DNA from: Tribonema minus
Taxonomy: Eukaryota; Sar; Xanthophyceae; Tribonematales; Tribonemataceae
Reading direction: 5' to 3'
Assembly: GCA_017506865.1 (NCBI GenBank)
Contig: JAFCMP010000101.1
Location: 248,001-312,000 of the forward strand
DNA: 64,000 nucleotides
In this document: positions 1 through 58,600 of the stretch, piece after piece
How the letters are laid out: every line of letters starts with the position of its first letter
Numbering within the stretch: the first letter of the stretch is position 1
Notes under the pieces: model-generated
Told to the model about the DNA's origin: nothing
Database searches by the model: none
The model's input: the letters and a program-made list of their open reading frames with translations, nothing else
Position numbers and translations under genes: made by a program

Positions 1-41
1 CTTTTGATTCACTTGCGCGGGTTTGATGGTTACGCACGCGC

Positions 42-430
42 CTTGAAGCAGCACCATAACTCGAGCCCCACGAGCTCCTTCTTGCTGGCGACGCGCGGCG
101 GCAGGCGCAGTATAGAAGTAGTAGTTGAAGCAGTTCAGTCTCACTCTCAATTTACTTGCGTGAATTTGACGGCTACGCACCTTGAAACAGCACCAGAACT
201 CGAGGCCCACGAGCTGCTTCTTGCTGGCGACGTGCGGCGGCAGGCACAGTGCAGCAGTTGCAGTACTTACTCAAAAGTAGCTGAGTCACACTTTGATTCA
301 AACAGCTCAGCTTCAGCTTCATTTTGCTTTTGATTGGTCTGCCAATTACGCACCTTGAAGCAGCACCAGAACTCGAGCCCCACGAGCTGCTTCTTGCTGG
401 CGACGCGCGGCGGCAGGCGCCCCGCGGCGT
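42..430 (-). repeat. Tandem copies of the PHD exon 3' end in the following intron
   Basis: The exon end at 351-430 recurs at 180-250 and 42-112. Each copy keeps the segment reading ASKKQLVGLE(F/V) and, at 180-250, the CAAG/GTGCGT donor. Spacing is about 140-170 bases. The copies differ by several substitutions, so they are old, and no assembly collapse is needed to explain them. Confidence 0.9.
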
Positions 431-34332: not shown

Positions 34333-34400
34333 TCTGGCGCTCATTTGCCCCTCTACTTGTGCATGAACCAAGTCAAATTTGCACCGCCCGCACGCTCTCA
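34333..34400 (-). repeat. Copy of the NAT10 stop-codon region in the 3' flank
   Basis: cgctcatttgcccctctact at 34337-34356 repeats cgctctcatttgcccttctt at 34394-34413, which covers the stop codon and last Lys codons. This edge is not a splice site, so duplication is not limited to exon-intron borders. Confidence 0.8.
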
Positions 34401-34643
34401 TTTGCCCTTCTTCTTGTGCTGCTTGCCACCGCCGCCACCCTCCTTGTGCTTGCGCTTCTTGTGTCCGCCGGGCTGCTCATCCTCCGCCTGGTCTTCCACA
34501 AACCCCTTAACAGTGGTCGGCGGCTTGTTGGACTTGATGGAAACGGCTTTGCCGCCGCCTTTTTTCTTGAGAGCTGCATCCCAGTCCGCCTCCGACCCCT
34601 TGATCGCGTATTGCTCGAGGTCCAGGGAGTCCAACAGCGAGTC
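34398..34643 (-). other. NAT10: NAT10 exon 23: C-terminal Lys-rich tail
   Basis: Reads DSLLDSLDLEQYAIKGSEAD then WDAALKKKGGGKAV and ends in HKKRKHKEGGGGGKQHKKK. The D-L-x-x-Y-x-I-x-G-x-x-x-x-W pattern matches the family's last conserved motif. The basic tail is a likely nucleolar localisation signal (inference). Confidence 0.93.
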
Positions 34644-37600
34644 CTGTTCGTGCAATCGAACATGTTAACATTGTATTCAGTACACAGTGGTGAGGCAACA
34701 AAAGCTGATGGACGTGGTCTTGAGGCTTTCTGAGCGTGTTGCGCGTCGCATGTTCTTTCATCATCACATGTGAAAAGTATTCCTGCTGAAGTACGTCCAT
34801 ACGCGAGGTAGCGCTCGCACTCCGGATGTGTTGGTGAGTCCCATGGGAAAGCGCGGACGGTAATGAAGGCAGATTGTTTCCATCACATTGCATGCATTTG
34901 TGTGTGTGGTCTGTGTTTCATTGTCTCTCATCTGTGCAGCAAAACTATAGTCCTGCAGCCAGCATCAATGACACAGCAAGACCAGCGGAGCCCTCTGTGA
35001 ATGCGCGCGGCACTGCGCCGTTGGTGCACAAGCAGCCCTCTGTTGAGTGCTGCATGGCTCGCAACGCACATTGCGAGTGTGTGTTGTGGACTCATTGGCT
35101 CGTGCAACAACCTGTGCGCGACATGTCATGATGAAGCAGCACTGGGTCCTGCGCAGCGAGCCCCGGTGATCTTCTTGCTGTGAGCTTCATCAACAGCATG
35201 AGCAGTTTTGATGCACATGATTGCATACTGCGCTGTGCCTCGCCGACAAGCCCATCTGCGTCTCCAGTGCGCAGCGTCGATAGCAGCGCGAGGCTTAATA
35301 GGCAATCGGAATGTGCACATGACGCGTCAACTGTCAGAAGCATAGACACTTCAGAGCAGTTGGCATATCGGGCAGGTCAACTGCTATGTGCCCACTATGT
35401 ACCCAAACAGCGACTTTCTGGCACCCTCGCAAACACAGTGGCACGGAGCTTTCGGTAGTACGCCATAGCACGGTTCACGTGTGCAGCTTAAGGTACGTTT
35501 CGACCTTGTACACCACTCATACATAATGCTTCAACTACACTTCAAGTGATCTTTGTGGCTTGCCACGGCATACTCGCCGAGCTTCGCAGCCATGGTCATG
35601 AGGCACACTTTGACGCAATGCACAAGTACACCGCAAGTACACTGTGGTACACTTCAAGGTACCTTCTTAGCTTTGAAGCTCGCCACGGCCTGCTTGCAGC
35701 TACTATCATCATGCACGCGTTGACACAATGCGCATGGTACACCGCAAGTACGCTGTAGTACACTTCAAGTTACCTTCTGAGCTTTGAGGCCTGCCACGAC
35801 CTGCTTGGCCCCCTCCTTCAGCTCGCTGTCCATGGTCTGCGGCACCATGTGCATGCCCTTGCCGGCCGCTGCCACAGCCTTTCTCGCCGAGGCTGCATCG
35901 ACGGACAGCAGAGCACGCCACGCAAGTCAATGACTGCTTGCTTGCAAACGGAATGCAGTTGCGGTTAGAGGATGTGCCAACAAAGAGGGAGCATGCAACA
36001 CAAGTCAATGACTGCTTGCAAACGGATGCAGCTGTGATTGTTGCAGCACGAGTGCATGAACATTGCCCTCACAACTTAAACTTGATCGGTGTCGGTTCAG
36101 GCTGCTTCGCCCTGGTGCAAACGCTGTGTGCAAATGGCCTCTGCCTCTGCTCTCACTAAGTGGCTACAACACCCATCCTCCATATCGCTTTCCACGGTGC
36201 CGTGGCTTCTGCTAACTCGTACGATCGGATGGCTTGAGTGGTGCCCTCAACCTCTTTGACGCTACCCTCAACCCTAAGCTGACGAAGATGCGCCCTCATC
36301 AAAACAGCGTACATGCACACACCTACTCGGTTGAGTGGGCGGCTACAAAACAGAGAGTGTTCGTCAAGCCCGTACGCACAAAGCAGGCAGCGCTCAGGAG
36401 CCACCATGATCTCTCGCGATAGAGGTGCTTCAAGCGTGTGACTTGCCGCTGAACAGGGCTCAACAGTGCTGCCTGCACAAGGCTCAAAGAAGGTACTTGG
36501 AGCTTGTAGTTCGCCTCTGTTTGCCTTAGGAAAAAACAGCATAAATGCACACACCTTGTTCTATCAAAGGCAACGGAAGCGACGGTGATCGTCAAGCCCC
36601 ATACGCGTCAAGCAGGAAAGAACTCTCAAAACAGGCGTCCTACAAAGGCGCTTCGAGCACGTGGCTCTCCTGCTTGGGGCTCAAAGCAGCGGTACTTCAA
36701 GAATGTGACTTGCCTGCTTGAGGTTCGATCTCCTCCTCCACGCCTCGCTCCTGCACCGCGCGCAGCGCATTGCAGATCTTGCGCACGGCCTTGTTGAAGA
36801 GCGCCAGCACCTGCATGACAACAAGTGCAGCGATGCTCAGCTCAGTACATGTTGAGGTTGTTGTTGAGGTTGTTCCTGCTGAGCACTTGACGTGCCTGTG
36901 AAATGCAAGTTTCACGTCCTGGTTCTTAATGATCGCTTCTTGAAACAGATGCACTTGCTGCGAGTCATGTGTCTGCTTGGGCCGCTTTCTTGTCCTCCTG
37001 TGGCATCGGTGATGAGCTATACTTTCAAATGAGAACTCAGGCGCATACACCAGTCTCTCTGCACAACAGGCCATCTAGATGCAGGTCTGTCCCCAGCACA
37101 CGTGGTGCATAGTCGCAGTTCAACTTCCGGATAAACGGGCGCCATCAAGAGTCCCGAAGGCCAACAGCAAGCCAGCGCAAAAGGAGAACAGCAGGGATGC
37201 ACGGCGGCGCCGCCATTGTACAAAGGTGAATGAGCCACCAAACGCACTCCTCCAGCTACTTCGATGTGGTACTCCCTCTACTTCAATATTTAGCTGAGCA
37301 TTTGCATGCAGCCCCTGCAGAAGATTGGACTCAGAGGTATGTTGTACATGTGTTGGAGTGTCACCGACCTGGTTGTCCGGCAGTTGAAGCTCCGCCACCA
37401 GCTGATCGACAGACCTACGACAATACCACATGAAACATGGGCATTAAGGGTCATGTGCTGGTATGTACACTGGTGCTAGGCCACAACTGCGCTTCATTTG
37501 TAAAGTGCGGTTAACCTTCGCAGGCAGCAAGCATCAGCAATTGTACTTTCATGTAGTCCACGTGAGGGGCGAAAACCCGATTCTGCACCACGTTGTATAC

Positions 37601-40600
37601 AAACACATGCTGCGAGCATACACCAAACTCTCACTTCTCTACTCCAGGCACAAGCAAGGTGCAAGTGGTGCTCCCCCCGACAGGAGCAATTTCAGTTCAG
37701 TGAGCACTTGAAGTATAAACTTGAAGATGAAAGCCGCCCTGCAGTGCCGCCGCGCTCACTCTTGCAGCGCGGCAGCGCTCAAAGTGCGAAAACGGCCTCG
37801 CAGCAGTGCCCAGCGCTCAGTGAGAGCGCGCGCACACGTGCGTCAATGTTGCCGCCGTAAACTGGTGCGAACGGCACGGGGAGGTGTGCTGCACGGCGCA
37901 GCGGCCGTTGCACCGAACGATGGTAGCGGCGCGGGAGCACGGCGCCTGGCGGGGCGCGAGTGCTGCAGTTCAAGGTGAACTGATTTACTGGCAACGACAT
38001 ATATTTGTACTGTTCTCCAAAGAGTCTGCGGTCACTGATGCCTGAACCAGGTGGTGTTTGTACGATATGTCGACGCTCGAATTGGGGGCGAATGGGTGTG
38101 GGCAGTTGTCTGCAGTGCGACTGCAGAACTTGAAGCTGTCTCACAACCATTGTGCATTGCTGTAAGGGTTGGGGTTGTCATCTACTAGTGTGCGGCAACA
38201 CTAAAGAGAGTTGACGCTTCGCTGCAGACTCATGGCATAGCTTGATGCGTCAAACGGTAGGATTATCACCTGTGCTGCAGTCCCAGTCCCAGCAGAATTG
38301 CCGCCTGAAGGTAGCTCGTGTTCACCTGAATGAAGGAAGGGGGAGGGAGAGATGGGTGGGGGGGGTCAGTCCTGCCACTGGACACAAACACAGTCAGGTG
38401 TGGAGGATGGGATTATACTTCTAGAGATTTGCTAATAGGACAGTGGTTGTTGCAGCGCAGATGACCACTTGATGGCACCAGAAATGCAGTCAACAACTGC
38501 ATGTGTACGCACGCGCTCGAGTTGCGTGCAGATTGTCAGTGAGATCCTGAGCATATCAAGCTGCACGTTTGACTGCCGTCGTCGTGAGAACACGACCAGC
38601 ATGACCTATAACTGGAATAGAGGTGCGCACCAATGTCATGCTGCAGCCTTTCCACGCCATTATACCATGCAAACATTGAAGATGGGCGCGTGTGTGTGTG
38701 TGTGTTTGGGGGGGGGGGAGGGGGGGGTAAATCTAAGTTCAACACATCTAATGTGGCCAATTGGCCCTGCTGCGGCGCCCACGGTTACGGGTGGAAGGCA
38801 TTCAATTTGACGGCTAACCACACTGAGCATATCAAGCTGCAGTAGTAAATTGCCGTCGGCATGACAACACCGCCAGCAGTTGGAATACATGGGCGCATCA
38901 GAAGCATGCTGCAGCCTTCTCACACCGTCCTGGCTACCTGTGTTGAGGGCATCAAGAAGGGCTAACCCTAAATCTAATCCTAACCCTAACCCTAACCCTG
39001 AGCCTGCTGAGGCCAACACATAACAGCCGGGACATTTCGCAAGACGAGCATCAATGTTGTGGTCAGGGCTGGGGCTGGGCAGCCTTGAGCCCTATAGGAT
39101 GCTAGTGAAGGCTTCCGATCAAACTCCGCTTCACGTTCTGTTTCGTCCCCTAACCCTAACCCTAACTCTAAGCAGTGCGCGTACATACCCCCGCGTTCAG
39201 GTCAACCACAGAGACAGAGCGGCGCTGCGTACATTTAACTGAAGTGTAAATGCAACCTCTGGCCATTCCAAAAGAGACGTGAGAGCAGGGCAGCACAAGT
39301 GTCGTGCAAGCAAGGCAGCACACTTGAAAACATGCGAAGCTGCGGTTCTGTTTCTTCCATTTGACACGCAGCTTAGGGTTACGGTTAGGGTTACATGTCC
39401 CGGCCTCGCGACGGAGCAAAGGTAAAGGTTAGGGTACCGAACACGTGGTTGCCCAACTGAACGGCAAAGCGGCGCAAGTGTCGGGGAACAAGTGACAGTA
39501 GTAGCTGCATGGTGCTCACTTTGTACACTTCTCCTGTCCGAGCACTGCTGTAACTGCAGCCGCCTATGTCTAGCGAATGCTCTCTAGCGCAAGCAGCCAG
39601 ATAAATGAACAAGTGCGGTTGTTGTGCGTGCGTCCAGACACATATGCTGTATTTGGGAGCCCAGCAACAGCGCGCTGCTCAGCCAAATGGTACTTAAATT
39701 ATATATGAATGAATGAAAACGAATCAAAATATATACTTTGAAGTATTGACTTCCGCTCGAGGGGCGAAAAACCCTATAGAAGTATGACACAGCGCATGTA
39801 GAGTATACAAGCTGTACACGCCACATCATTAGCGACTGATTCTCAGTGCGAGGATGCGCCCATGTGTGTCCCCACCCCACCCAAATGCAGCTGCCACTAC
39901 TGCTACAGGTACCACTACCCCTGACAAAAACGCACCTGCGGCAGCCTCTCTGAGGAAGTAGAGGCGCGCGAAATCGCAATGCACGCACCCAGACACGAAT
40001 GTTGTACTTCAAGTACAAGAGCCTATCAGCGACAGCGCTATCCAGACACAAACAAATGTTGAACTTCAAGTACATTAGAGCTTCAGCGACAGCACTGCTC
40101 TGTCAACAGCGCACCTGCGGTAGCCTCCCCAGGAAGTAGAGGCGCGCGGAATCGCTACGCGCGCATCAAGACACACACAAATGTCGTACTTCAAGTACAT
40201 GAGAACTTCAATGACAGCGCTGCTCAGTCAAAAGCGCACCTGCGGCAGCCTCCCCAGGAAGTAGAGGCGCGCGAGCGTCGGCAGCAGGTCCGTGATGAGG
40301 TGGTAGTCCACCATGTTGCGCGCGTAGAGCTCCAGGCGCTTGAGGTCGTGCGGCGTGAGCAGGTAAGAGAGCTCCTGCGGGGCGATGCCGCCTGGCAGTT
40401 GCAGGGCAGTTACACGGCAGTTATGGCAGTGAGAGGTCGTGCGGCGTGACGCAGGTAGGTATGAGAGCTCCTGCGGGGCGATGCCGCCTGGCAGTTACAC
40501 GGCAGTTACACAGCAGTCAGAGGACGTGCGGCATGAGGAAGTACAGTAGGTACGAGAGCTCCTGCAGGCCGATGTCGCCTGGCAGCTACACGCGGCAGTT

Positions 40601-43600
40601 ACACGGCAGTTAGATGTCGTGCGGCGTGAGCAGGTAGTCAGTGAGCATGAGCGCTGCTGCGGTACTTCAACTGCAACAATGCAAGCGGACACGAGACGCC
40701 TTGTGTTGCTGACACCATGCGCAGTGCACACACTGCTCTCACCAGCTTCGATGGCGGTGGTGACAGCGGCGGCCTCCTGCTCCGCCGCGGCGGCGTTCAA
40801 GTGCTTGAGCTGCCTGGCGTCCATGAGCGTGACATTACTTCAACTTTTACCATAAAGCGCGCGCAATTCTCTCACCGGCTCCGATGGCAGCAGTGACAGC
40901 AGCAGCTCCCTGTTCCGCCGCGGCGGCATTCGAGTGCTTGAGCTGCCCCGCGTCGATGAGCGTGAGCACCGCCACGGTACGTCAACTTCAACAACAAAAA
41001 TGCGCAGATTCCTCTGCCGCTGACACCACACGCAGCGTGCGTGATTCTCACCTGCTTCGATGGCGGCGGTGACGGCAGCAGCGCCCTGCTCCGCCGCGGC
41101 GGCGTTCGAGTGCTTGAGCTGGCCGGCGTCGATGAGCGTGAGCGCAGTGGCCGTGTCGAAGGCCGTGAACTCGTGCGCGTAGAGGTTGACGACGCGCCGC
41201 CGGCAGTCCGTGGCGAAATCGGCAAGCCAGCCCTCGCGGGGCGCCTCCGCCAGGCCGTCGGCGCGCAGCGCGCGCAGCATGACGCCTGGAATGGCGGAGA
41301 TTGCGGCAGGTGAGATGATGCTGCTTTGAAGCTGGATTACAGATCAGAGCTGGAAGCGACAGGCGTACCTACCCCTAATTCTGACCGCGCTAGAAAGTCG
41401 GCGCTTAGTGCGCACAGCATGACATCCAAATGCCGATGCGTTCATATCGAGGCTTGACTGTTGATGATAGGGAGCAGAACGGGTTGGGGGCTAAGTCGGC
41501 AGGAGTGAACAGTGAGCGCAATGGCGCTTGAAATGAGCCCCTGGCAGAGTCAGCGAGCCAGCCCTCACGCGGCGCCTCCGCCAGACCGTCGGCGCGAAGC
41601 GCGCGCAGCACAACACCTGAACTGGCAGATTTTGAAGCGGTTCAAAGGTAGATTCTCGATGATTTTGGCCTGCAAGTCCGTCGGCACAAACAGCGTGAGC
41701 CATGACGCTTGAAACTATTCCGTGGCAAGTCGGTGAGCCGGCACTCGCGCGGCGCCTCCGCCAGGCTGTCGGCGCAAAGGGTTATTGAGAGCATGGTCAA
41801 GGATGCGCCAACGCTGGGGCGCGACAGATTGCATTCAGGCTAGATTGTCGAGAGAAGGGTCAGGGGAACAGGCGTCCCCAACCCTAATCCCGACCGCCAG
41901 GGTGGCAGGGGCCTTTTGCTAGGCTGTCGCATGCCACACGGCACCTTGCAAAATTCCTTGAATCACCTAAACTCCGACAATAACCTTGTTCTGGCGATGC
42001 ATGAAGGCTGCGGGTACTTTGGCCAGAGTTGAACTGTAGGTGCCACATGGTTAGTACTAGGGTTGATTTTAGGGGGCCCCTCTCCCAACCCATGCAATGC
42101 GCCCCTTCCTGTCAGGCGTCTGTTGAGGCCTGGACTTGAACAAGGCCTTTCAGTGAGTATATATGCATTACACCATACCCAGGCACACTTATGTTGAAGT
42201 GGTTGGCCAACTTCAACTATGACGCACCGGTATGCTCCCCGGTGAGCTCGTTGGTGGTCTGCCGCAGGTACACGAGGTCCATGCCGACGCGGCGCCAGAA
42301 GCGCAGCAGCTGGGCAGTTACACCGTAACTGACGCCCAGCCAGTGCAGCCGCTCCGGCTTGCGCTGCGACGCGGGCACCTACGGGAATGACGACATCACA
42401 ACAAGGGAAGGCATGGATAGCGTGAGGGTACTTAATGTCATGTTCATCACAACAAAGGGAGGCATGGATAACGTGAGCGTACTTGTTGTCGCTTTCTTCT
42501 TGGAGCAGCGGCAGCAATGCCCCCATCGTAGGGTCGGTTAGCAGCACCCACGCCTGCTACTATGATGATGCAGCATGTGCGCCGTGCCCACCGTGGCGCA
42601 TCGCTCGCTTCAGAAATTGCAGCTGCCAGAAGGTCGCTTGGGATTCATGTGCAATGCTTCGGGGTGCTGAGAGTATGTAGCGCGTGACGCTACTGCTGCT
42701 GCTCGAGTCACAAAGCCTGCGCCGCCTCACGCAGTCCCAGTCATTATTGAGCATAGTGGAGCGCTGCTGCATCACGAGCTCTGCCGCGTCCTCCCCAGCA
42801 GAGGCAAGGCTCGTACATTCGCATGCCGTCGCAGTGAGCTCATGGTTGAGCGCTGACACCCAGCGTCGAACTTTTGCACCCCTTCATGCAGCAAAGGGGA
42901 CCAGGCGTAGAATGGGTGCTTTTTGCGTAGAATGGGTACTTTTTGCAACCCCCCCCCGGGAAGGAAGTTGGCAGTGCGCCCAATCAGTGGTTGCAAAGTT
43001 GAGAGCTGCCGCGGCCTCAGTCTGCGTCACTTGAGTCAGCAACAATGACAAGTGGTTGCATAGTTGAGCGCTGCCGCGGCCTCACCAGCAGCGGCGGCAG
43101 CTTCTTGCGCGGCTTGAGGCGCTCCTTTGCGAGCGCCTTGGACACGGCGCCATTGCCATTCGCGTCCCCCTTGTCGCCTTCCCCCTCGCTTTCGGCCCCC
43201 TCCCCCTCTGCATCTGCGCCGTCGGCATCGCTGGCACCTTCTTCATCGTCATCGCCGTCGTCGTTGTCGTCTTCGTCGCTGGCGTCGTCGCCGCTGCCCT
43301 CGTCGAGCGAGATCAGGGACCCCTGCGCGCTCAAAGTCAACATTCCAGGTGTTTGGTTTCTTTGATAATTTGAGCGCATTCGCAAGACTTGCGCGGCATC
43401 AGTTTAGTGTCTGTTGAACATTGTGGAACTGGAACAAGGTTCAGTGATTGCATGATCGGTGTCTTCATGGCAGCTGGCGTCGTCGCCGCTGCCCTCGTCG
43501 AGCGAGATCAGGGACCCCTGTGCGCCGAGTTCAATGTTTGCGAACAGATCGGTTGAGGCCTTGTTTGAAAGAAAAAATTGGGAAGCAACAGAGATGGTGG

Positions 43601-46600
43601 GATTGGTTGCACCTATGAGAAGAGCTTGTGTGAGTGACCAAAGTCATTTTGCACATTCCATAAGACTGGCAAGTAGTACATCAAACGAGTACACCAACCA
43701 CACGCTCTTTCGGAGCTTTGAGCGTGCGGCATCGCAACTGTAGTTCACTGCCGTCTTGCCAACTTCGTTTAGGCGACACAGCAATCGCAGCTGCATCTAA
43801 GCAACACTGCGCTTTCGACGCACATGCTTTGAAGCGGTTTGAGGTACAAGCAGTCAATTGCTGCTTCATCTGAGCATCACTGCACATTTGGAGCACATGC
43901 TTTGAAACGCTCTGAAGCACATGTAGTCTACACATACGACACCTCGAACTTCCTGTAGCATCAGCTGCATGGCGCGCACGCCTTGCACGTCCCCTGCGCA
44001 CTCATGACCCCATACCCTGCACATGTATATACATATCCCCTACTCTGCACCACACATACATGCGCACCTGAAAGTACTTCAGCATCACGCTGCATGACGC
44101 GCGCGCGCCGTACCCCATGCCCTGCACACGTCTCTACGTAGCCCCATGCCCCTGCTTGTGCATACATACATGGGTACATACATACATACGGACCGCAAAG
44201 TACTGCAGCATCAGCTGCATGGCGCGCGCGTGCCGTACCCCATCCCTGCACACGTCTCTACATACCCCATACCCTGCTTGTACATACAACATACATACAT
44301 ACATACCTCAAAGTACTGCAGCATGAGCTGCATGGCGCGTGCGCCGTACCCCATGCCCTGCACGTCCGGGTGCGTCGCCACGCGCACGATGCGCGCGCCG
44401 CTGAGGCCCTGTCAGCAGCAGCAGCGGCAACGATCAGCAGCGGCAGCGATCAGCAGCAGCAGTGATCGGCAGCAGCGGCGGCGGCACAGGGGCGCAATGG
44501 ATGTCACGGGCTTGAGACGCATTGAGTCAGCAGCAGAGGGCAAAAAGTGCATCAGTTTGCACGACGCGCGCGCCGCTGAGGCCCTGTCAGCGATCGGCAG
44601 CAGCGATCAGGCAGCGGCACGAGCGCGCGTGAGTCTGCAAACAGCATACAGTAGCATTCTGCTGAGAAGCATTCACGGGTCTCGAGCGCTGTACATCTGA
44701 ATATGAGGACTTGCTGAGGCCCACTCGGCAGCAGCAGCAGCGGCGACCGGCAGCAGCGACCACGAGTTCAGCAGTATCCCATGTCGCAGTCAGAAACACA
44801 CTGCACTGCCCGTCAGCCTCTGCGCCAGGCTTACAAGTGTGGCGTCAGCAGAGTGATAATCACAGCAACAGTGTTTTTTTTCCATTTGGCTTTGTTTACA
44901 ACACTGTCCATTGAGCTTTGTTGTAAACATGAGGACGGTTCAAGTAATCCGTAGGGGCGAGGTCAACACCATTTGGTTTATCTATCCTCGAAGGCTGCAT
45001 GCTGGTCACCGCAAATTCTATGTCCTGACGTTGGCAGTTCAAAGAAGACAAAAAGGCGCTTACCGCAAATTCCGTGTCCTGAAACTGCTGCGACAGCGTC
45101 CACGGGATGAGGTCGCCGGATGAGCGCTGCCCCTTGGCCAGCGCCGCCTGCACTGATGCCTTGCTGATCTGCCCCTCCAGGGCCACCTGAAACCGACGGG
45201 ATGACGCGGCGAGCGGCGAGGCTAGCGATTGAGGCTCATACAGTGATGCATAACAGGTACTGTACTTGACAGGTGTTTGATATGACACTGATCTGCCCGT
45301 ACAGGGCCACTTGAAACCGATGAGACAACGCGGCCAGCAGCGAGTCTAGCGAGAGAGGCACTGGGAGGACAGTGCACGCAGGGTGACCCAGATTGTCTCT
45401 GGGCACACATTAGCACTGTGATGACTTGACATGCAACAGACCTGAGCCGCTTCAATGTAAGGTATGTCGGTATGAAGGTATGTGCTCACCTGAATGACGC
45501 ACAGCACGTCCGGCAGCTCGCCGCGCGCCCCCTGCTTCTCCGCGGTGGGCCCCAGCAGCACAAAGAGGTGATGCGCGGGAGCATCACTCAGCAGCTGCAG
45601 GTCGTTGGGCTGGTTCTTGTAGTGCGCCGCCGTGTACAGGCTCATCACCTGCACCAGCATGACACAGTGGAACAGCGAGGCGATGAGCTGACATGCAGCT
45701 CATTGCTACCCCAACTCTAACCACAACCCTTGTTGTCAGATTCCGGCATAGCAGCAGACGAACCGTAATGCCGGACCCAGTTGACAATCAATCGCACACG
45801 CGGCACAAGCTCTCTGATTTCGTTTCGTAGTGGTGTAAGGTTCAAGATACTGAGCACTGAGGGCATGCAAAAGCGCCTCGCTGCGGTTCAACTGAATACT
45901 GCATGCAACCGTATTGCGTCTAGACGGACACTGTGTTGAGGCGCCTCCACAGCTTCATGTCTGAACTTGAAGTTTTTTAAGGACGCTGAGCACGGACCCT
46001 CTGCAGAAACGCCTCGCTGAGCTTGTGGTAGCTGAACGCGCACTCAACCGATTGTGTTTGCAGGGCACTTTTCAATTTTGCTTTGAGGGACCTCTTTTTG
46101 GCTGCACGGACCACAACTTCATGCTTGAGATTGTTGAAGTTTAAAGGACGCTGAGCACTGACCCTCTGCAGGAACGCCTCGCTGAGCTTGTGGTAGCTGA
46201 AGAGAGCGTCGCGGTCGACGTAGAAGAGCTCGCAGTCGCGCGGCGACGGCGTACCCATCACCAGCCTGACGGGTACAATCAATTGCAAACATGAACGCGT
46301 GCATGAGAGCTATGTTAGGGGTATGTAGCACGTCATCGTTCTCTTCAAGAAGAAGAAGAAGTATGCTTCGAAGTAATTGAGGAGGGCGTCCCCGTCACCA
46401 GCCTGAGGGCGATTGCGTGTTGAAATGCGCGCGTGCGAGCGCTGTTAGAGGCATGTATGCACGCCACGTAATCTCTTACTTCAAGACGTAGAAGTAGAAG
46501 AGCTCACAGTCGCGCGGCGAGGGCGTCCCCATCACCAGCCTGAGGGATAGAACCAAATGCATACATGAACGCATGCGTGAGAGCTATGTAGGGGTACATG

Positions 46601-49600
46601 TACATGCTACTAAACATATGTATTCATAAAGACCATCCACACGTATAAATTGCAACCCATCTATGTACCATGTACACTTTCCAGCCCTACTCCTAACGCC
46701 GCACAGCATCTGCAAGCCGCAGTGCTGCCGGCATTGGCCTTAACCCTAGCCCTGGCCTTAACATAAACCCTGACCCTGATTGTGACTTGTCCCCCCCCCC
46801 CACCTCTCACCTCTGCCGCCGCCGTGATTCAAGCGTGCAGGTGAGAGTTTGTATGTACATGTGGCAACGTTGCAGAGTCTGTGCCTTTGACAGACAGGAA
46901 CATGACCTGAGCGTTCAATTTGAGGCATCGTGTATCGAGGCGCCAACTCGTAGCAAAAGGGGGTCTTGAGGGCAGCCTAACCCGAAGAGGGCGACCTTGC
47001 ACAGCATAACCCAACTTCTAAACCTGACTGAATACCCAACCCTACCCCTAGCCTCTCAACTCTCATGCCGCCACGCGAGTCGAGGCACAGCAGCGAGTGC
47101 AGCCACGCCTCAAGCTGGTGTCGCAGCAGTAAAGGGTCACGAGGGCAACCTTGCGCAGCATAATCCCAACCCTAACACCAACCCCAACCCTAACCCTACC
47201 ACCAACCCTAAGCCTAACGCTAGTCCTAACCCTAACTCCAACCCTAGCGTATCACCTCTGCATGCCGCCGCGCGAATCAAGGCACAGCAGCGAGTGCAGC
47301 CACGCCTCCACGGGGTCCCCCGTGGCGTAACGGATGGGGGTTTCAAGGGTGATCTCACGCAGCGCGCGCCCGGCGCCCGCGTTGGCGCCGTGCTTGGCGG
47401 CGTTGGCGGCCGCGTCGGCGCTCGCGCGCCAGCGCTGCTCGTGGACCTGGTTGAGCGATGTCACAATTCATGAGTGAGGCGCGATTCGGTGATATATGAA
47501 CGAGACTCAGAGCCGGCGACGTGCAGTCGGCACCAGCCCGTGAAGTGCCAGCAAAATGTCAATGTCAGCCGTGCTTGGCGGCGTTGGCGGCGTCAGCGCG
47601 GCCAAGTCATAGATTTCACGGGTTTCATATCAAATAGAAGTAGAAGTAAATATGTACAACAGTTGTCTTTTTTGTGTACTGTACATCTGAACAACTAGGG
47701 GGTGATATGTACTGTACATCTGTACGATTAGTGAGTGACATGTACGCAAGACTTGGTGGCGGAGACTGGCAAAGCGCTGCGGGCACCAGCCCGTGAAGCA
47801 TACGTCTATGAATATCACGGATAGCCTCAATGTCAGCCGTGCTTGAAGGCGTTGGCGGCAGCGGCAGCGCTTGCGTGCCAGCACTGCTCACGGATCTGGT
47901 TGAGCGACGTCGCTTGCAATGCGTGAGTGAGGCGCGTCAGCTCGGTGCCGTAATGCAAGACTTGAGGGGGGGGGGGTTGGGGGGAGGGCGGGACTGGGGG
48001 GGGCACGGTTGGACGAGCGCCGCACCAGGCCATCGAGCACACGGTATGCATACGAAGCTTAAGGCGCCCCAGGGACCATCATCATGGCCTGAGATGGCAT
48101 GCTCCTGTGCCACATGCTCCCCACTTCAAAATATCATGGTTTGACCTCAACAACACAGGTTGTCCATTTTGAAGGGTACATCATAACTTGACATCAAAAC
48201 CAAGCACGCTTGGTGGCGTGAGGCACTGCGCCAGCGCTCGCACTGCGCGCGGGTTCCGGTTGAGCGATGATGCGACTCATGAGCCGAGGTGTGAGCGGTG
48301 GAATCTGTGCCTGATTCCCATGCACGATAAGCTTGGTGCGTGGTGAGAAGCATCTCGCAAGTCAGAGGCACTCGTGGTGCTGCTCTCCCGTTTACCATGT
48401 GAACGCAGCAGATGCCGTCAATTCTGGTAATTGTTGCTGTCTTCGATGAAGAAAAGAAGAATCTGGGTGCGTCATGAAGGATATTAAGCTGCCGCTGTGC
48501 ACTTGTGAGATGTTACTCATATAGATGCAGCATTCATAGGCACATCATTATATTTAAGCTCATACAGTGCTACACCATCTTCAACTTCACCTTGTCGCGC
48601 CCCTTGGCGCCGCGGCCGCTGCCGTGCACCTCTGCTGCGGCCGCCGCCGCCGCAGCTGCCGCTGCGCCGCCCTGCTGCTTGCGCAACTGTTTTCAGAGAG
48701 GGGCACGGAGCAGGGCAGGCGCTAAGTCTGGTGTGCACCTAGGCATGTATGTAACATGCTGACCCTGACCCTAAAAACTTGATGTTCACCAGCGTGACAA
48801 GAACAGGGTTAGGGTTGGAGTTATCGGAATATGGATGTGCATCGACCGCGTGGGATAGTCCCGATGTCTATCAGGAAACGTAAGCAAACCTCGAGTTGGG
48901 GCACGTACTGTGTTCACCTACAAGAAGCAGCTGGGACAACCTAGTTTGCACGATTGTACTTCACGAATTATTTCGGAACTCAGAGGAGAGTCTACTTCAC
49001 ACAAGTGCAATGACCGTGGCACCCAAGTCATTAATGAACGAGGGTCAAAGATGTACTATCGGCGGGGCTATGCGTAGTGCTGCAGAGCAGTGTGCAACCA
49101 TCAGGCACGCGCGATGGGGACGCATGATGGCGATAAGTGTCACGTTGCGGGCCCAAGCTCGGGCTACATTGCCAGGACTTCCACAGCAGATGGTGTGCAA
49201 TGCAGCGCCGAGTCGATGGTGGAAGGGGCTGAGATACAGAACCGTGGCCCCACAGCTAAGCTGCGGCGCGTGCTTTCATCAAGCTTGAGACCGAGCTTCC
49301 TGCTTTGTGTCTGTGACATGAGCTTTACCCCCCCCTTCTCCTAATCACCCTTACCCTGACCCGGACCCCCCCCCCCCCCCACCCCTTGATTACCATGCCC
49401 TGTCCTCAACCATGACCCTTGTATACACTACATATCTGGTCAACGAGCTCCAGACTGAGGGCGCAGCCGGTACCCTGGTAGCCCATTGACCATACAGCGT
49501 AGCCAGTGACTATACAGGGTTAAGGTTAGAGTGAGGGTTGAAGTTGGGTTTAGGGTTAGATTATTTGGTCAACGAGCTTGAGACAGAGGGCGTAGACGCT

Positions 49601-52600
49601 CAGTACACAGGGTAAGGGTTAGGGTAAGGGTTGAAGTTAGGTGTAGGGGTAGATTACCTGGTCCACGAGCTTGAGACTGAGGGCGCGCCCGGTGCCCTCG
49701 TAACCGTTGACAGTTGAGCTCATGAAGACCAGGTAGGGGCCCAGCAGGGCCTTGACGAGCGGCAGCGGTATCGCCGCAGCCTCGTCTATCGCGAGCAGTT
49801 CGCAGTGTGCGAGTTTGTTGCTGTCATGGGGCTGCGAGGGGGGGGGGGGGGGAGGGAGGGGGTCAGCAATGAACTTAAATGTTGATTTTATAAGCGGTAT
49901 TGCCGCAGCCAAGGGAGTTGAAGGTCATATTAAGGGGAGGGGGTCAACGATGAAATATAATGTTGATGTTGTAAGCAGCATTGCCGCTGCCTTGTCTATC
50001 GCGAGCAGCTCGCGTATGCGAGTTTGTTGCGGTTGGGGGCTGCAAGGGGGTTGTAGTTCATATTTGAGGGGGGGGGGGGTCAGCAATGAACTTCAATGTT
50101 GATGTAATGAGCGGTATCGCCGCCGCCTCATCCATTGCGAGCAGCTCGCAGTGCATGAGCCTATTGCTGTCAAGGGGCTGCAGAGGGGGGGGGGGGGGTC
50201 ATGCCAATGGCACCGGGACTCTGATCTTCAATGTGCATGCAACAACACAGAGCACGACAATCGACAAGAACGGGAGGGGGGGGGGGACGGGAGGGAGGCA
50301 GGGTGTGACCCTGGCGCAATGACGTCTTGAGAGCTGTTGACAGTCAGTGGCAGACACGTCACATCATGATTGTTGCCGTTGACTTTGTGCATCGGTGTTC
50401 GTGATACTGTGCCGCCGCCGCAGCAGTATCAATACCGCTGCAAGAGAAGTGCAATGCGCCACAGTGCTGGTGTAAGTGTGCCGTGGAAGCCGATGGTGCC
50501 GGCGGCGTATTTGATGGTGCATATGTTGTAGCGTGCTGCCTTGATGCCGGTGCAGAGCTGATGAGAGAGGCAACCCATCACCAAGGCAGTCACAGTTTAA
50601 ACACCAATCATGATGAGAAAGGCGTACTTCAAAGCGGAAATTCGCTGTCAAAAAAAAAGGGAACTGAACTGCAACTGCAACTGCTCTCCTCCTGCTAGGT
50701 GTTAATCGGGTGGTAGTGCTGCGATTTGGTGACTAGTTGGGGCCGCAGAAGCTGCGCACCCACCAGTGCAGCAGTCAGGACTTGAAACCACTTGCAAGTA
50801 TTTGATGAGGCACAGCGGGGCCCCGCGCAATCCGAGTGTCACCAACGCCACCTCCAGCAGTCGACTTCAAGCAGCGCAAACTATTCGGAGCTCCAATGGA
50901 CCACTTGGAAGTACAACGGAGGTGCAATACTCAAATCATGCTGTGCGGTGCCGACTGCAACTGCAACTGCAGAACGCCTTCAAGTCCCACTGTTATTCGC
51001 GAAGTGAGACATGAGACATGCTGCAAGACGCCATCAGCTCTGAAGTATGTGACAAGCATGTCGTGCCATTGCTCAGGCGTGGGGCTTGCTGGAACATACT
51101 GACCTGTTCACACGCTAGACCGCCGCGTTCTGATGGGCGCAAGTGATGGCATCAAAAACTGCTCACAGGCAATCACACTTCTAGTCGAATGTACTCGTGT
51201 CGCGTGCTGTCGGCCGTGAAGCAGCACCGCTCCGAATGCGCACCTGCATGTACTGTACGGTTTAAGGGTGGCAGCAGCGCTCACCTGTGTGTACTGAATT
51301 TGTGAAGTGAGACACGAGGTGTGCTGCAAAACGTCATTGAATGAAGTGTACGGTCTGACGGCGGCAAAGCTCACCTGTATGTACTGGATGGTCTGGCGGT
51401 GGTCGCGGAAGACGTTGATGCGCACGACTGCCTTGTTGAAGGCGGGGTTGGAGCTCTGCAGCACCTGCGCTCGTGTAACGCAGCACGGACGGATGGGAAG
51501 GAGGCAGTATTCAGTATACACCAAAACAAGGGAGAGTGTGGCGCAGAGACATGTAGCAACAGAGCAAGCTGAAGGCGGGGTTGGAGCTCTGCAGCACCTG
51601 CGCACATTTAACCAAGCACGGACCATGGAACTGGGGCAGAGTCCAGCATGAGGTACAGAGACACGTGACCACATAACAAGCTGAAGGCATTGTTGGCGCC
51701 GCGTCCTGGCGCGGAAGATATTAGATGCAAATGACGACCTTGTTAAGGACGGGGTTGGAGCTCTGCAGCACCTGCGCTCGTGTAACCAAGCACACAAGGA
51801 TGGAAATGAGGGCGAGATCGGTTCCGCACCAAATAGAGAAGAGCAGCATCGCAACAAGAAGAAGCCTTTAGCTTGTTCTGCTGCTATGTGAACCAAGCAC
51901 GGATCAAGGAACTGAGGCAGAGCCCAGCAAGAAGGTGCAAAGACAAATGACAACAGAATACGCTGGAGGCGTTGCTGGTACCGTGCAGCAGTGCAGGAGA
52001 CGTTACATGCACACAATTGCCATGTTGGAGGCAGGATCAGAGCTCTGTAGCAATCTCATCGGACCCTGATTCCAGCCCCTAGTTGTACGCGTGCGCACGT
52101 GATCACCAGTATATCATGTATGTGTTTATTTCAGCGCGTATAGATTCGTACCTGCGCCAGGCCACTCATCAAAGCAGGAACAAAACATGGACAGTAACCG
52201 GCGATGAATTCAACTTGTATGCCGTTTGGCCCAAAAATACAGCAGCTGAAAAAGGTGAGCGTACATCGTTGTGCAGCGCGTGCGCTCGCTGAGGCGGGAT
52301 TGAGGTGGCGCAGCACTGAGTTGAAGTGTGAGGGTGGTGGACGTGTGACGTGGCATCGATGCATGCAGCGACGTAAGAAGATAAATGTGGCAAATGTAAC
52401 CTTAGGGGTAGGGTTAGGGTTAGCCTATTTGCGGCATTGACACTGCGCTACACCGACACCCATGCACCACATTTGCACTCCGCTTTTGCTGTCGCTGTTC
52501 ATTTCTAAAATGATCTTTTGCCCCAAGTTTATTGAGCATTGATGCTTGTGGGCCGCACAAGCTGGCCCTGACAAAGAGAAACTTTCAGTTATGCACATCA

Positions 52601-55600
52601 CTTTAGCAGTGTTTTAATTGTGGGCTACTGCATTCGAGGATGGCAACTTTACATACATGTTGAAATGCACATGGCTGTTTTGTTCAACCTGACAAGGCGA
52701 TCCCCTCATGCCACAACCCCCATGTCCTCTGCACACTTGAGCAGGTTGAAGCCCTCAGGATGAAGTGCAATGTTGAAGTGTGAGCAACGGCCTCTACCCA
52801 ACATCATGACTACATACTTGATATTGACACCAACACTATTGTATATCAAAAACTATGTCGCTCACCTCATAGTCCATGTGCTCAGTGTACTTGAGCAGGT
52901 CGAAGCCCTTGAGCACAAACTCGAACACGGTGCCCAGGTTCTCAGGCGACGGCGCTGTCACGAAGATGTTGCTGTAGCCATAGGCAATGGCGCCTGCCAG
53001 GCACAGCCCTATGGCCGCGGACTTTCCGCGCCCTCTGCAGGTGCAACCATAAGTCCAAGTTGAACTTCACGTGAGCGCTCGCGGGGCTGATAGACAGGTG
53101 TATTTGTGCGAAATACGCGTAGCATGTGTGTGTGCATGGTCAATGAAGGCGCACATTGCTGTAGCCGTAGGCGATGGCACCTGCCAGGCACAGCCCTATG
53201 GCCGCGGACTTGCCGCGCCCTACAGTGGAGACGCAACTGCAAGTTCAAGTTGAAGTTCAAGTGAGCGCGCGGCACGTGCGGTCAGTCGGCACGTATATGA
53301 TAGCAAACGGGCGTCTCTCAGCAATGGCAGTTGCTCCGCGTAACACGTGTGCGCATGATGTATGAAGCGTGCGTTGCTGTAGTCGGCAGGTACAGCTGTA
53401 TGGCCATAAACAGCAGAGACGCAATCACAGTATTTTGAAGTGAGCAAGGCACGTCACTGGGCGGTAGACTATGTCAACACGCAAACAATGAGCGAGATCT
53501 CAGTGCATTGTAGCTGTGAAGCATCCGCCTCTTCAGTTCTGCGATGCGAAGGCAGTGGCTCGCCCGTCACCGCAAAGCTTTCACAGAAGCAGCACCTGTA
53601 TGTGGTGGCGGCGAGCGCTTCGGTCATTGCGCATTGTCTTCTTCCCGCTGATGGCCAACCAGCTGAGACTTGTCGCCTACTTAGAGCTCTACGACCTCAT
53701 GATCCATTTCCATGAAACAACTTTCAAGTCAGCATTACCACCTCATAAACATTTGTCAGTACAGTACACTCCAATGAACCGTTCCACCAGCACTGGTACA
53801 CTTCACCACGTCAGGCATTCACGGGCGCCTATGCTGTTGCCTGCTGGCGGCAAAAGCCATGGTCACGTGCGCAACAACTTCTTGCTGATGGCCTACATGA
53901 AGGTCAACAGCACATAGTGATTGGTGACCCCCCCCCCCCCCCCTCCCCTCATGCGTACTGCGCGATACCACCACCTCCGTATTTACTGGCAAAAGGTGCT
54001 GTGGGTTGTTCGTCATCACACCCAGGTTGTGAGGTGTTGCAGGCTATTGACGGTTGCCCCCCCCCCCCCGCCCGCCCCCCTTCCCCTCAGGTATGCGTTG
54101 ATGCATCACCATACCACCACCTCCATCCATGCACTGAGCACATAACACCACGCCTCGTGTCGTGACGTGTTCAAGGTATAACGTGATACTGTACCTAGCT
54201 GTGAGCGCCACTGTCGTGCACAGAGGCCTTTTGCTGACAGCCCCTCCAAGAAGGTCAGCAGCGCTAAGCACCACCCCCCTGCCCCCCCCCCTCCCCCCAT
54301 CATGTCAGTAGCACTGCATAATGCTACCGCCACATCTGTTGACTATGCGCTTACAAGAAGCGGTGTGGATTATTCGCTCATCATCACACCAAGGTTAGCA
54401 TGTACCTGCTGGCTGTGAGTGCCACTGTTGTTCGCAGCGTCTTCTCGCTGATGGCCTCCATGAAGGTCAGCAGCGCTCGCGCCTGGTCCAGCGTCTTGGC
54501 GCCAGAAACGAGGGGCCCTGCCAGTCATTCGGAGGTGCCACAGCACACATGTCGTTTTGAGTTGAGCCGCTGAGCACAGATGGCTTTCAGGGAGCTGCAA
54601 GGGGCCCCCGGGTTTTGTTCATGTTTACAAAGTAGCACTGCAAACATAGGACGTCACTCTAGGTAGTACCAACAATGCGCAGGTGAGCAGCAGTGCTCGC
54701 GCCTGGTCCAGCGTCTTGGCGCCAGACACAAGGGGCCCTGCCAGTCATTCAGAGGGAATCGTAGCAAGCATGCAGAGCTGTACATTGAGCTACTGAGCAC
54801 GGGTGGCCTTCAGGGAGCTGAAAGGGGGCCTGCAATTTTTGTTCATTTGCAGCAGCACTGCGCTGCAAACAAGGAGAGTCACTTGATAGCCTCCACAACG
54901 CACAGGTGAGCAGCAGTCCTCAGCGTCGGACACAAGCGGCCCTGCAAGGAGATGAGACGCCAGTGGGCTATTGCAGCGTAAGTTGAAAGTAACAGTGAAG
55001 CTGAAGCTGACTGAGCGACGGGCAGCGTGCCCTTCAGCAGCGCCTTGAGCTCCGCGAGCTCCGACTGCTCGCGCGTGGGCTCCACTTGAGCCCTGGACTA
55101 TCACTGGCAGTATATGTTGATTGTGAAATTCTTGTTGTTACAATAAATGTAAAATTCAAGAAGTTGAAGTTGACTCACCGATGGGCGGCGTGCCCTCGAG
55201 CGAGGCCTTGAGCTCCGCGAGCTCCGCCTGCTCCTGCGTCGGCTCCGCGCCCGCCGCCGCCGGCAGCGCCTCCACGCGGCGCATGCGGCTCGACAGCGGC
55301 AGCACGTTGAGCTCGTCGTCGCACGCGAGGCACGCGCCGCAGTCCGCGAGGCTCAGCATGAAGCGCTCGTTGAAGCGCGCGACGACGTCGCCGTGCGCCT
55401 CCGTGCGGAACCTGCGGCGGCGGCAGCGAATAGTACATGTCAGCGTCGAAACAAGATCCCGCTGAAGGTGCATAAGCTGCAAGGAGGTAACGCAGCACAA
55501 TGGTGAGCGCGAGGCGTGCGGCGGTCGGGGATGCATAAATTGAAGTTGAAGTTGCAGCGCGCGACGACGTCGTCGTGCGCCTCCGTGCGGAATCTGCAGC

Positions 55601-58600
55601 GGCGCCAACAACCGTCGGTGAGCGCTGGCAGCGCAAAGCGTCACAACTGCGCCGGAGGTGGATGGCAATGCAACGACCGCTGAGCCGCTGCACACGAAGC
55701 ACAGTATGAACGCCATGCGGAACGATCCTGAGCTGGCGGATCGGCGTTCGCAAGGTACAAACTTCCACTTTGGCTGAAGCCATGGGTGCGCACCTCTGCC
55801 CCCCTTGCCTGCGTCAGAATAGTTTTCATCGGCAACTATGCCATCAACGCTCAACGCAGCACCGCCAACTTCCACCACGGCCGTCACGGCGGCGCACGCA
55901 GCGACTGTCTGCGTAGACTTGCACCAGAACTGACCACGGGCGACGATGTATTGCACGCGCGGCAATGCAGCGATTGCTGATGCGTGATGCGCTGTAGCTT
56001 GCAGCTGAAAGCGGCGCCACGTTGCCATAGTTGAAGTTCAAGTTGGGCTTGAAGCCTTCTGCCACAACGGCGACTGCGCAGGAGTAGGGTTGAAGTCGGG
56101 GGTTTTGCAAACGCAGTGCTCATCCTCATTGGGCAATGCGCCACATCTGGCTCCTACGACATGCCTTGAACACTGCGATCAGCCAGCGCTTCGTCGGCCG
56201 TGGCGCGCCGCAGTTGAAGTCAAACTTGCAGTGCGTGTTATGCATTTATGTGGGGGACACTGCATGGGCCTCCTGCAGCGGCGCGTCACCGGCGTGCGTA
56301 GCAGCGCCACGCGCTTGTCTACACTGACTGCTGCTCGTCGCATTGAACACCATCTCTTGTGTATGTGCGCCTATGCGAACATGCCCTTACCCCCCAGAAG
56401 CAGTATTCTCGCCTGTCAGCTCGTCGACGGTGAGCGTGCACAGCTGCTGCAGCCGCATGCCCGTCGCCAACAGCAGCATTACAGTGCATGTCTATGGTCA
56501 CCCAAATGCCGCTAGCCTCCACCAGACTTTGTTGAATGCAGAAACAAGTCCTCACCTGTCGTGCACGTCTATGGTCAGTGTGTATGGGTGCTGCAGCGAC
56601 GCGACCGTCTTAAGCAGCAGCGCCACATGTCGCTCGCATCAAATGCTGCTACGTGGTCTCCATTAGACTTTTCTGCACGGTTTGAACCCTAGAAACGATT
56701 CATCACCTGTCGTGCACATCCATGGTCAGCGTGTACAGCTGCTGCAGCGACGCGACCGTCTTGAGCAGCAGCAACACATGATGCTCACCCACATCAAACG
56801 CCTACATTAAGTGCCGCTAGTCTCCATTACGCATACTTTTTCCTGTATCCCCTTCATACAAGCAGCGTCTCACCTGTCGTGTACATCCATGGTGAGCGTG
56901 TACAGCTGCTGCAGCGACGCGACCGTCTTGAGCAGCAGCACCACGACCCCCCCCCCCTCCACCGTCTCTATCGTCCGCGCCAGCAGATTCGGCGTGAGCG
57001 CCTCAAAGTCCTGCAGCACGCACATCCCAAATGTCTGTCCGAGAACCTTGGCCGTGTCCCTGCACGTGCGCAGAATTGAAAGGCATGAGAAGGGGCAGCA
57101 GCTTGCGTTCAGGCTTGTGCGCACAAATGAAAGGAATGAGCAGAGGCAGCAGCTTGCGTGCAGAAGTGGTTGCTGCAGTTGCTGTGTGCCGTGATGAGGC
57201 TGATGTAAAGCAGCAGCAACTGCACACGTGCGTACATGTATGTGTGCCCAATGGATGATAATGACAACGGACATGAAAAAACCATCCACAAAGATGTTGC
57301 TACCAGCTTAATGCGGCCTGAACGGCCGACATCTGGGGATCACTTGTTTGACCAGCGTGTCCCACACACACCTAAACTTGCTATTCAGATCATCAATTCT
57401 TGCTGTGAGCGAAAAATGTCTGTATAATTTGCATAACACTTACCAACAAAGTGCCTACAAGTCCGCAAATCACACAGAGCTCAGTCAGCTATGGGGTTAA
57501 GATTAGGTAGTACGTCCACCGCACGTTGGTGGGGGTGATGAAGAGCTCAAAGGATTAGCGCAGCACTTACAATCCTTACACATCCCGCTAAAAACACGTA
57601 CTCAGTCAGCTGTAGGTTGGGGTTAGGCACCTGTAGTACTTCCACCGCACGTTGGTGGAGGTGATGAAGAGCTCAAAGGACTAGCGCAGCAATTAATCAA
57701 AGCGTTTATCCATGCCTGCAAATCACACAGTGCTCAGTCAGCTCCATACACGAATCTATCGTATGTCTGCCGCACGTTGAGCAAGGTGATAAAGAGCTCA
57801 AACGACTACCACAGCACTGACTGATGAGGTGTCTACAGAGTGTCCAGCTACATGCACGCACCTGGTACGTCCAGCGCATGTTGGTGGAGGTGATGAAGAG
57901 CTCAAAGGACTGGCGCAGCACTAAGTTGAGGGGATTTTACATATCCAAAAAAACTACGTACACGCACCTGTAGTACGTCCACCGCACGTTGGTGGAGGTG
58001 ATGAATAGCTCAAAGGGGTCCTCGCTTGCGTCCCCCGCGCTCGCGAGGCCGCTCTTCTTCTGCCGCTTCAGCTGCCGCATGCGCTTCTGCCTGTGCGTCG
58101 AGAAGCCCAGCTGCGCCGCAGAGAGCGGCGACAACACAGGTGCAATGGGGATGGCATTGAGCATGGTCCAATGAAAATGAATCGATCGTAGAGCTCTAGG
58201 TGACAAGGTGTGGTTAGCCGTCAAATTGAATGCCTTCCACCAATAACCGTGGTCGCCGCTGCTAAGCAGCAATTGGCCACGAGTCAAACAGTGCCACCAT
58301 ATCCACAGTAGTCAAAAAGACTTATGTGTGCAAGCTTTTTAGCGTTCGATGCATGGGTGTTCAGTTGAATACTGCGTCATGCGCCATTTCGCGCCGAGTC
58401 ATGCCCTCCGATAAGGTATTGAATTGATTGTCTAGGCGTTTCGCGCCCTAGCAAGGGTCAATGGAGAGTACCTTATAGCGCGCAAGTCTGAAGTCAGGCA
58501 AGCTGCTGACGTCCTGATGCATGTGGGAAGGCAGCACTATGTACATGACAGGCCTTCTGCTGCGCCGTTCACGCTATGGGGCACCCAAGTGCCCTTCTGC

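Follow-up and report, generated by a model that had tools for sequence, protein, structure and literature searches.

Duplication across splice junctions as a probable route of intron lengthening in Tribonema minus

Long introns are usually ascribed to transposons and random insertions. For the gain of introns by tandem duplication there is a further model, for which Hellsten 2011 and Gao and Lynch 2009 are reportedly cited. In this model a copy of the acceptor-side exon sequence comes to lie beside the donor and vice versa. Tandem genomic duplication is also given as a route of intron gain in a review (PMC3443670). A single duplication across a splice junction has already been published: according to PMC4974935, one tandem duplication across an intron-exon boundary created a new intron in the potato RdRp gene, and an intronic duplication of 83 bp is noted in the same paper. 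Introners, as treated in PMC9860276, shape intron evolution at genomic scale through one element that occurs in many genes. The T. minus introns described here resemble the potato case in that the duplicated unit holds an exon edge, a splice site and adjacent intron. They differ from that single event in showing many events per gene at both kinds of edge, by which existing introns would be lengthened and not a new one made. Titles and abstract openings were searched for repeated, exon-anchored lengthening of introns and none was found, most subscription journals and preprints lying outside this search.

The window is a stretch of 64,000 nucleotides of the T. minus genome. A profile search with PF13718 of the genome (158 Mb, 554 contigs) matched four exon pieces of a NAT10 gene on the contig that holds the window (C101), and the annotated T. 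minus protein P0001 could be aligned in spliced form to the minus strand, from 59365 to 34401, with zero mismatches. The joined NAT10 exon translations were 100% identical to P0001 in the best local alignment, which covered 48% of the query. The spliced alignment yields 21 exons; the 23 exons counted in an earlier note on this DNA are therefore too many, whereas its statement that at least 15 exons have copies of their own edges holds, since 15 do. When 20 open reading frames of the window were searched against Pfam only a kinase and a PHD domain were matched, and an Rfam search of the whole window gave zero matches.

The positions of the edge copies were determined by comparing whole NAT10 exons with window positions 33501-64000 by blastn. 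This gave 43 matches in adjacent introns (20 upstream and 23 downstream of the exon), one same-strand match elsewhere and six inverted matches. Upstream copies corresponded to the 5' part of the exon and downstream copies to the 3' part. Exons 2-8, 10, 11, 13-15, 17, 18 and 20 had a copy in an adjacent intron, and by the blast criterion 17 of the 20 introns held edge copies. With Smith-Waterman alignment and a 1% null, copies were present at 26 of 40 edges; none was found at the start-codon edge. Self-alignment of the gene gave 56 direct repeats of at least 40 bits that lay less than 1.6 kb apart, one that lay farther apart and two inverted ones, and a hand count of this list showed an exon edge to be involved in 43 of the 56. 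Bases 46-114 of exon 14 together with intron positions 1-118 aligned with intron positions 44-244 at an offset of 112, which on this alignment is to be read as a head-to-tail array across the splice junction. The interval 52866-54517, presented earlier as the clearest example, was described correctly: copies of the exon 5 donor edge at 54265-54195 and 53911-53841 and a weak one at 53656-53603 are followed by a copy of the exon 6 acceptor edge at 53221-53156. The arrays are listed in Table 1.

Table 1. Positions of NAT10, its edge-copy arrays and related features (window coordinates, except for the two further loci in the last line)
Feature	Position	Strand	Basis
Coding region of NAT10, an RNA cytidine acetyltransferase gene (21 exons, 20 introns)	34401..59365	-	exact spliced alignment of P0001
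Exon 2 donor-edge array, four copies in intron 2	57507..58016	-	blastn, self-alignment
Exon 3 donor-edge array, four copies in intron 3	56270..56944	-	blastn, self-alignment
Exon 4 acceptor edge and copy in intron 3	55369..55607	-	self-alignment
Exon 4 donor edge and copy in intron 4	55016..55246	-	self-alignment
Exon 5 acceptor-edge array in intron 4	54468..54921	-	self-alignment
Exon 5 donor-edge copies in intron 5, farthest weak	53603..54477	-	self-alignment
Exon 6 acceptor-edge array in intron 5	52969..53271	-	self-alignment
Exon 7 acceptor-edge array, three copies in intron 6	51404..52052	-	self-alignment
Exon 8 acceptor-edge array in intron 7	49764..50198	-	self-alignment
Exon 10 donor edge and copy in intron 10	47060..47308	-	self-alignment
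Exon 11 donor edge and copy in intron 11	45998..46201	-	self-alignment
Exon 14 donor-edge array, three copies in intron 14	43932..44363	-	self-alignment
Exon 17 acceptor-edge array, three copies in intron 16	41205..41779	-	self-alignment
Exon 17 donor-edge array, two copies in intron 17	40745..41143	-	self-alignment
Exon 18 acceptor-edge array in intron 17	40342..40662	-	self-alignment
Exon 18 donor-edge array, two copies in intron 18	39936..40274	-	self-alignment
PHD exon of another gene, 3'-edge array; copy 36-108 of exon end 348-420	7..420	-	Pfam, alignment
Short copies of the coding end just past the stop codon	34341-34362 (NAT10); loci L064 and L067		

Further genes (tRNA synthetases, kinesins and MCMs) were located exon by exon with Pfam profiles. 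Twenty stretches covering 16 genes were examined; chaining of the matches gave 37 introns in 14 genes, and two of the 16 loci had no usable intron. The splice sites of these 37 introns were inferred with a matrix trained on NAT10 and are not annotated ones, and two HMM matches that were copies rather than exons were left out by hand. With these inferred sites, edge copies were found by the blast criterion in 21 of the 37 introns, so the pattern extends beyond NAT10 as had been proposed; in MCM genes, for example, some copies surfaced as second HMM matches of one exon. The PHD gene of the window shows it as well, its exon end and copy being identical at 70 of 73 bases, whereas the kinase gene, for which it had also been claimed, has a single nearby direct repeat (31556-31611 with 31667-31722) with no exon edge assigned. 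By Smith-Waterman alignment against a null of 912 non-cognate comparisons, 55 of 114 edges had copies above the 99% level, 29 of 74 outside NAT10. A few of the weakest among the 113 copies are probably chance matches. Of the 60 donor copies, 56 came to within 10 bp of the edge and 54 lay in the donor half of the intron; of the 53 acceptor copies, 45 came equally close and all 53 lay in the acceptor half. Up to 10 copies with graded decay were present at one edge. Donor copies preceded acceptor copies in all 20 introns that had both, which is the inward order without acceptor-donor alternation that the earlier note had described.

Several other repeats were observed. At window positions 58165-58290, in NAT10 intron 1, lies a dispersed repeat of ~105-125 bp; a first look at the genome gave 2478 candidates, 40 of which were scored and yielded 42 matches. 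An inverted relative lies in NAT10 intron 18 (~38753-38823), and introns of loci L038 and L051 contain further ones. Runs of telomere-like TTAGGG hexamers occurred in 10 of the 57 sampled introns, for example at window positions 38962-38999, and CAACTTCAAC-type 9-mers and poly-C or poly-G runs recurred in 8-10 of the 57. Long open frames at window positions 18150-24614 contain a 78/156-bp repeat array with ~24 units and had zero Pfam matches at an E-value of 0.001.

The repeat arrays of the sampled introns are concentrated at the splice edges. Of 61 arrays, 51 touched one edge, one touched both and nine touched neither. With the double one omitted, uniform placement of the remaining 60 would put 14.6 arrays at an edge (s.d. 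3.2), and the largest of 20,000 such draws had 28. The proposal of edge-anchored tandem duplication is borne out by these counts. The duplicated unit of the nearest copy had a median of 49 bp of exon and 79 bp of intron, with a period of 162 bp (n=51). The median intron length was 976 bp with edge arrays vs 561 bp for the others, and 35% of the sampled intron bases lay inside edge-linked arrays. Tandem duplication may instead be uniform over introns, with edge copies merely more recognisable through exon conservation; exon-copy pairs diverge along one branch and intron-intron pairs along two, and bases within repeats, which make up 15-29% of intron bases, are common at all distances from the edge. 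Since edge copies are more readily detected beside a conserved exon, the placement was tested again with the exons removed. Still, 37 of 58 intron-only arrays were no more than 40 bp away from a splice site, compared with 8.0 expected, as were 32 of 50 (7.1 expected) and 23 of 41 (5.6 expected) at two stricter thresholds. At an identity of at least 80%, 30 of 32 arrays were within 100 bp (9.8 expected); at 85%, 88% and 90% the figures were 14 of 17 (4.3), 9 of 14 (3.7) and 6 of 11 (2.6). We reject the idea that the edge bias is due to exon conservation alone, because the bias persists with the exons removed and at 80% identity and above, and we regard uniform duplication as quite improbable. 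The weakening of the bias as identity rises and numbers fall, and the nine internal arrays, count against an edge-anchored explanation.

The arrays also differ from the known kinds of intron repeats and duplicated exons. Minisatellite units would be placed regardless of splice sites, unlike these arrays. The intron-gain model has in common with T. minus that intragenic tandem duplication shapes introns; after an AGGT exonic duplication, however, each splice site would be followed by sequence of the other edge, whereas in T. minus the copies that follow each edge are its own, donor-first in 20 of 20 introns. With introners T. minus shares the genomic scale, but its arrays stem from each intron's own exon edge, while introners are one element in many genes (PMC9860276). 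Most of the 51 matches between different introns came from telomere-like repeats, a single dispersed element and a handful of short similarities, and they did not involve the arrays, so that a derivation of the arrays from introners or transposons is not supported. A shared short motif as cause was not found either, no 9-mer being present in more than 10 of the 57 introns.

The copies were further compared with the coding sequence of their exons. Mismatches between copy and exon fell on the three codon positions in the numbers 159/115/321; 52 indels shifted the frame and eight were in frame, and 13 changes created stop codons. In 56 triples of an exon with a near and a far copy, changes private to the exon were distributed as 12/3/52 over the codon positions, those private to the near copy as 53/45/79 and those private to the far copy as 71/72/84. 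The exon is under constraint, while the copies are nearly free and inert. The frameshifts, the stops and the spread of changes over the codon positions lead us to reject the copies as coding alternatives, and, as they span exon edges only, they also do not behave as duplicated or mutually exclusive exons. A joining of diverged haplotypes end to end in the assembly is an extremely improbable source of the copies: in some long, well-preserved ones most differences from the exon do fall at third positions, as they would between alleles, but up to 10 graded copies at one edge, frameshifting indels and the recurrence in 14 further genes across many contigs, in fetched loci without N, stand against it. 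Changes common to both copies numbered 67 vs 404 private ones (28 sites with three different bases were set aside), and 52 of the 67 were at third positions, which fits a change in the exon itself. Copying from a decayed copy would give many shared changes regardless of codon position; the live exon edge is therefore the usual template, either by starting each copy or by rewriting existing ones.

According to the earlier note, the copies nearest the exon are usually the best preserved, like growth rings. For the exon parts this stood: in comparisons restricted to a common exon core, the nearest copy was better than the second in 22 cases against 5 with 2 ties, and in 11 of the 12 untied comparisons within NAT10; over all pairs the nearer copy was better in 71 of 110 untied cases and worse in 39, nine further pairs being tied. 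Complete series were not in every case monotonic, as in the NAT10 exon 2 donor series (93, 79, 96 and 96%). In the intron flanks that had travelled with the copies no gradient with distance was seen (13 to 13). Among 33 copies of at least 90% identity over at least 30 bp, 19 kept the live flank, three matched only the flank of another copy and 11 matched neither. Since the flanks lack a gradient and the live flank is missing from 14 of the 33 well-preserved copies, distance may reflect conversion as much as age. That copies simply accumulated in succession at the exon, so that distance is age and gene conversion plays no part, thus seems unlikely to us, even though the exon-part comparisons and the 227 private changes in far copies vs 177 in near copies would be expected of it.

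The exon parts of the copies look younger than their flanks. Some copies were 95-100% identical in the exon part with the intron flank gone, and in several donor copies and the PHD exon the homology ended 3-6 bp beyond the exon, where the splice signal stops. Gene conversion from the exon is probably the better reading of these alignments. Constraint on the copies, which might for instance act as splice-site decoys or as pseudo-exons with a regulatory role, could mimic it, and splice dinucleotides were indeed often kept: 39 of the 52 donor copies and 28 of the 40 acceptor copies still had them. We give selection on the copies little credence, however, in view of their frameshifts, stops and changes at all codon positions and of several near-identical copies without GT or AG. 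Copy order by intron-flank distance, a noisy measure with a random floor of 0.27, gave as nearest level EN in 15, EF in 11 and NF in 4 cases. In some arrays (introns indexed 8, 24 and 38, in this noisy comparison) the live flank was nearer to the flank of the second copy than to that of the first, which suggests duplicated units that hold two edges.

Stop codons were used as a control. Of 18 gene ends examined 12 were kept, and six (L062, L068, L071-L074) were dropped as their true stop was uncertain; these six had no copies scoring 28 or more. Short copies (22-27 bp, score of at least 28) that reached the stop codon or came to within ~6 bp of it were found at three of the 12 reliable stop edges, compared with 55 of 114 splice edges, a sample too small to call the rates different. 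Because stop edges also have copies, splicing may not be the cause, and coding DNA beside non-coding DNA may be a sufficient condition. Repeats made up 1.7% of the bases in the 3' flanks (up to 1 kb past the stop codon, 11 genes, 9,977 bp) vs 15-29% in introns, which argues for something about introns.

We consider it fairly probable that introns of T. minus lengthen in large part through recurring head-to-tail duplication of junction-spanning segments, with probable gene conversion from the exon. A segment spanning a splice junction would be duplicated head-to-tail, repeatedly. Whichever copy remains attached to the exon body would stay exon, because otherwise intron sequence would enter the mRNA, as follows from splicing and the reading frame; the other copy would turn into intron and decay as inert DNA. 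Selection would keep the exon edge constant and hence similar to young copies, so that it could continue as a template, with unequal exchange or template switching giving rise to new copies and gene conversion probably rewriting those already present. Internal repeats would drift on both sides and fall silent, while repeats at the edge would keep exchanging. A more far-reaching form, which we advance tentatively and would not expect to hold in full, is that exon-anchored accretion is the main determinant of intron length in this lineage: the edge keeps copying itself into the intron and rewrites the nearest copies, and the junction focuses the duplications.

With 35% of the sampled intron bases in edge-linked arrays, a route of intron lengthening is legible straight from the sequence. 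The copies serve as fossils of exon sequence, and since the changes found only in the exon since copying are mainly at third positions and those in the copies are not, a single genome suffices for measuring how strongly an exon is constrained. If accretion at the exon edge is true, introns would be layered records of past exon sequence.
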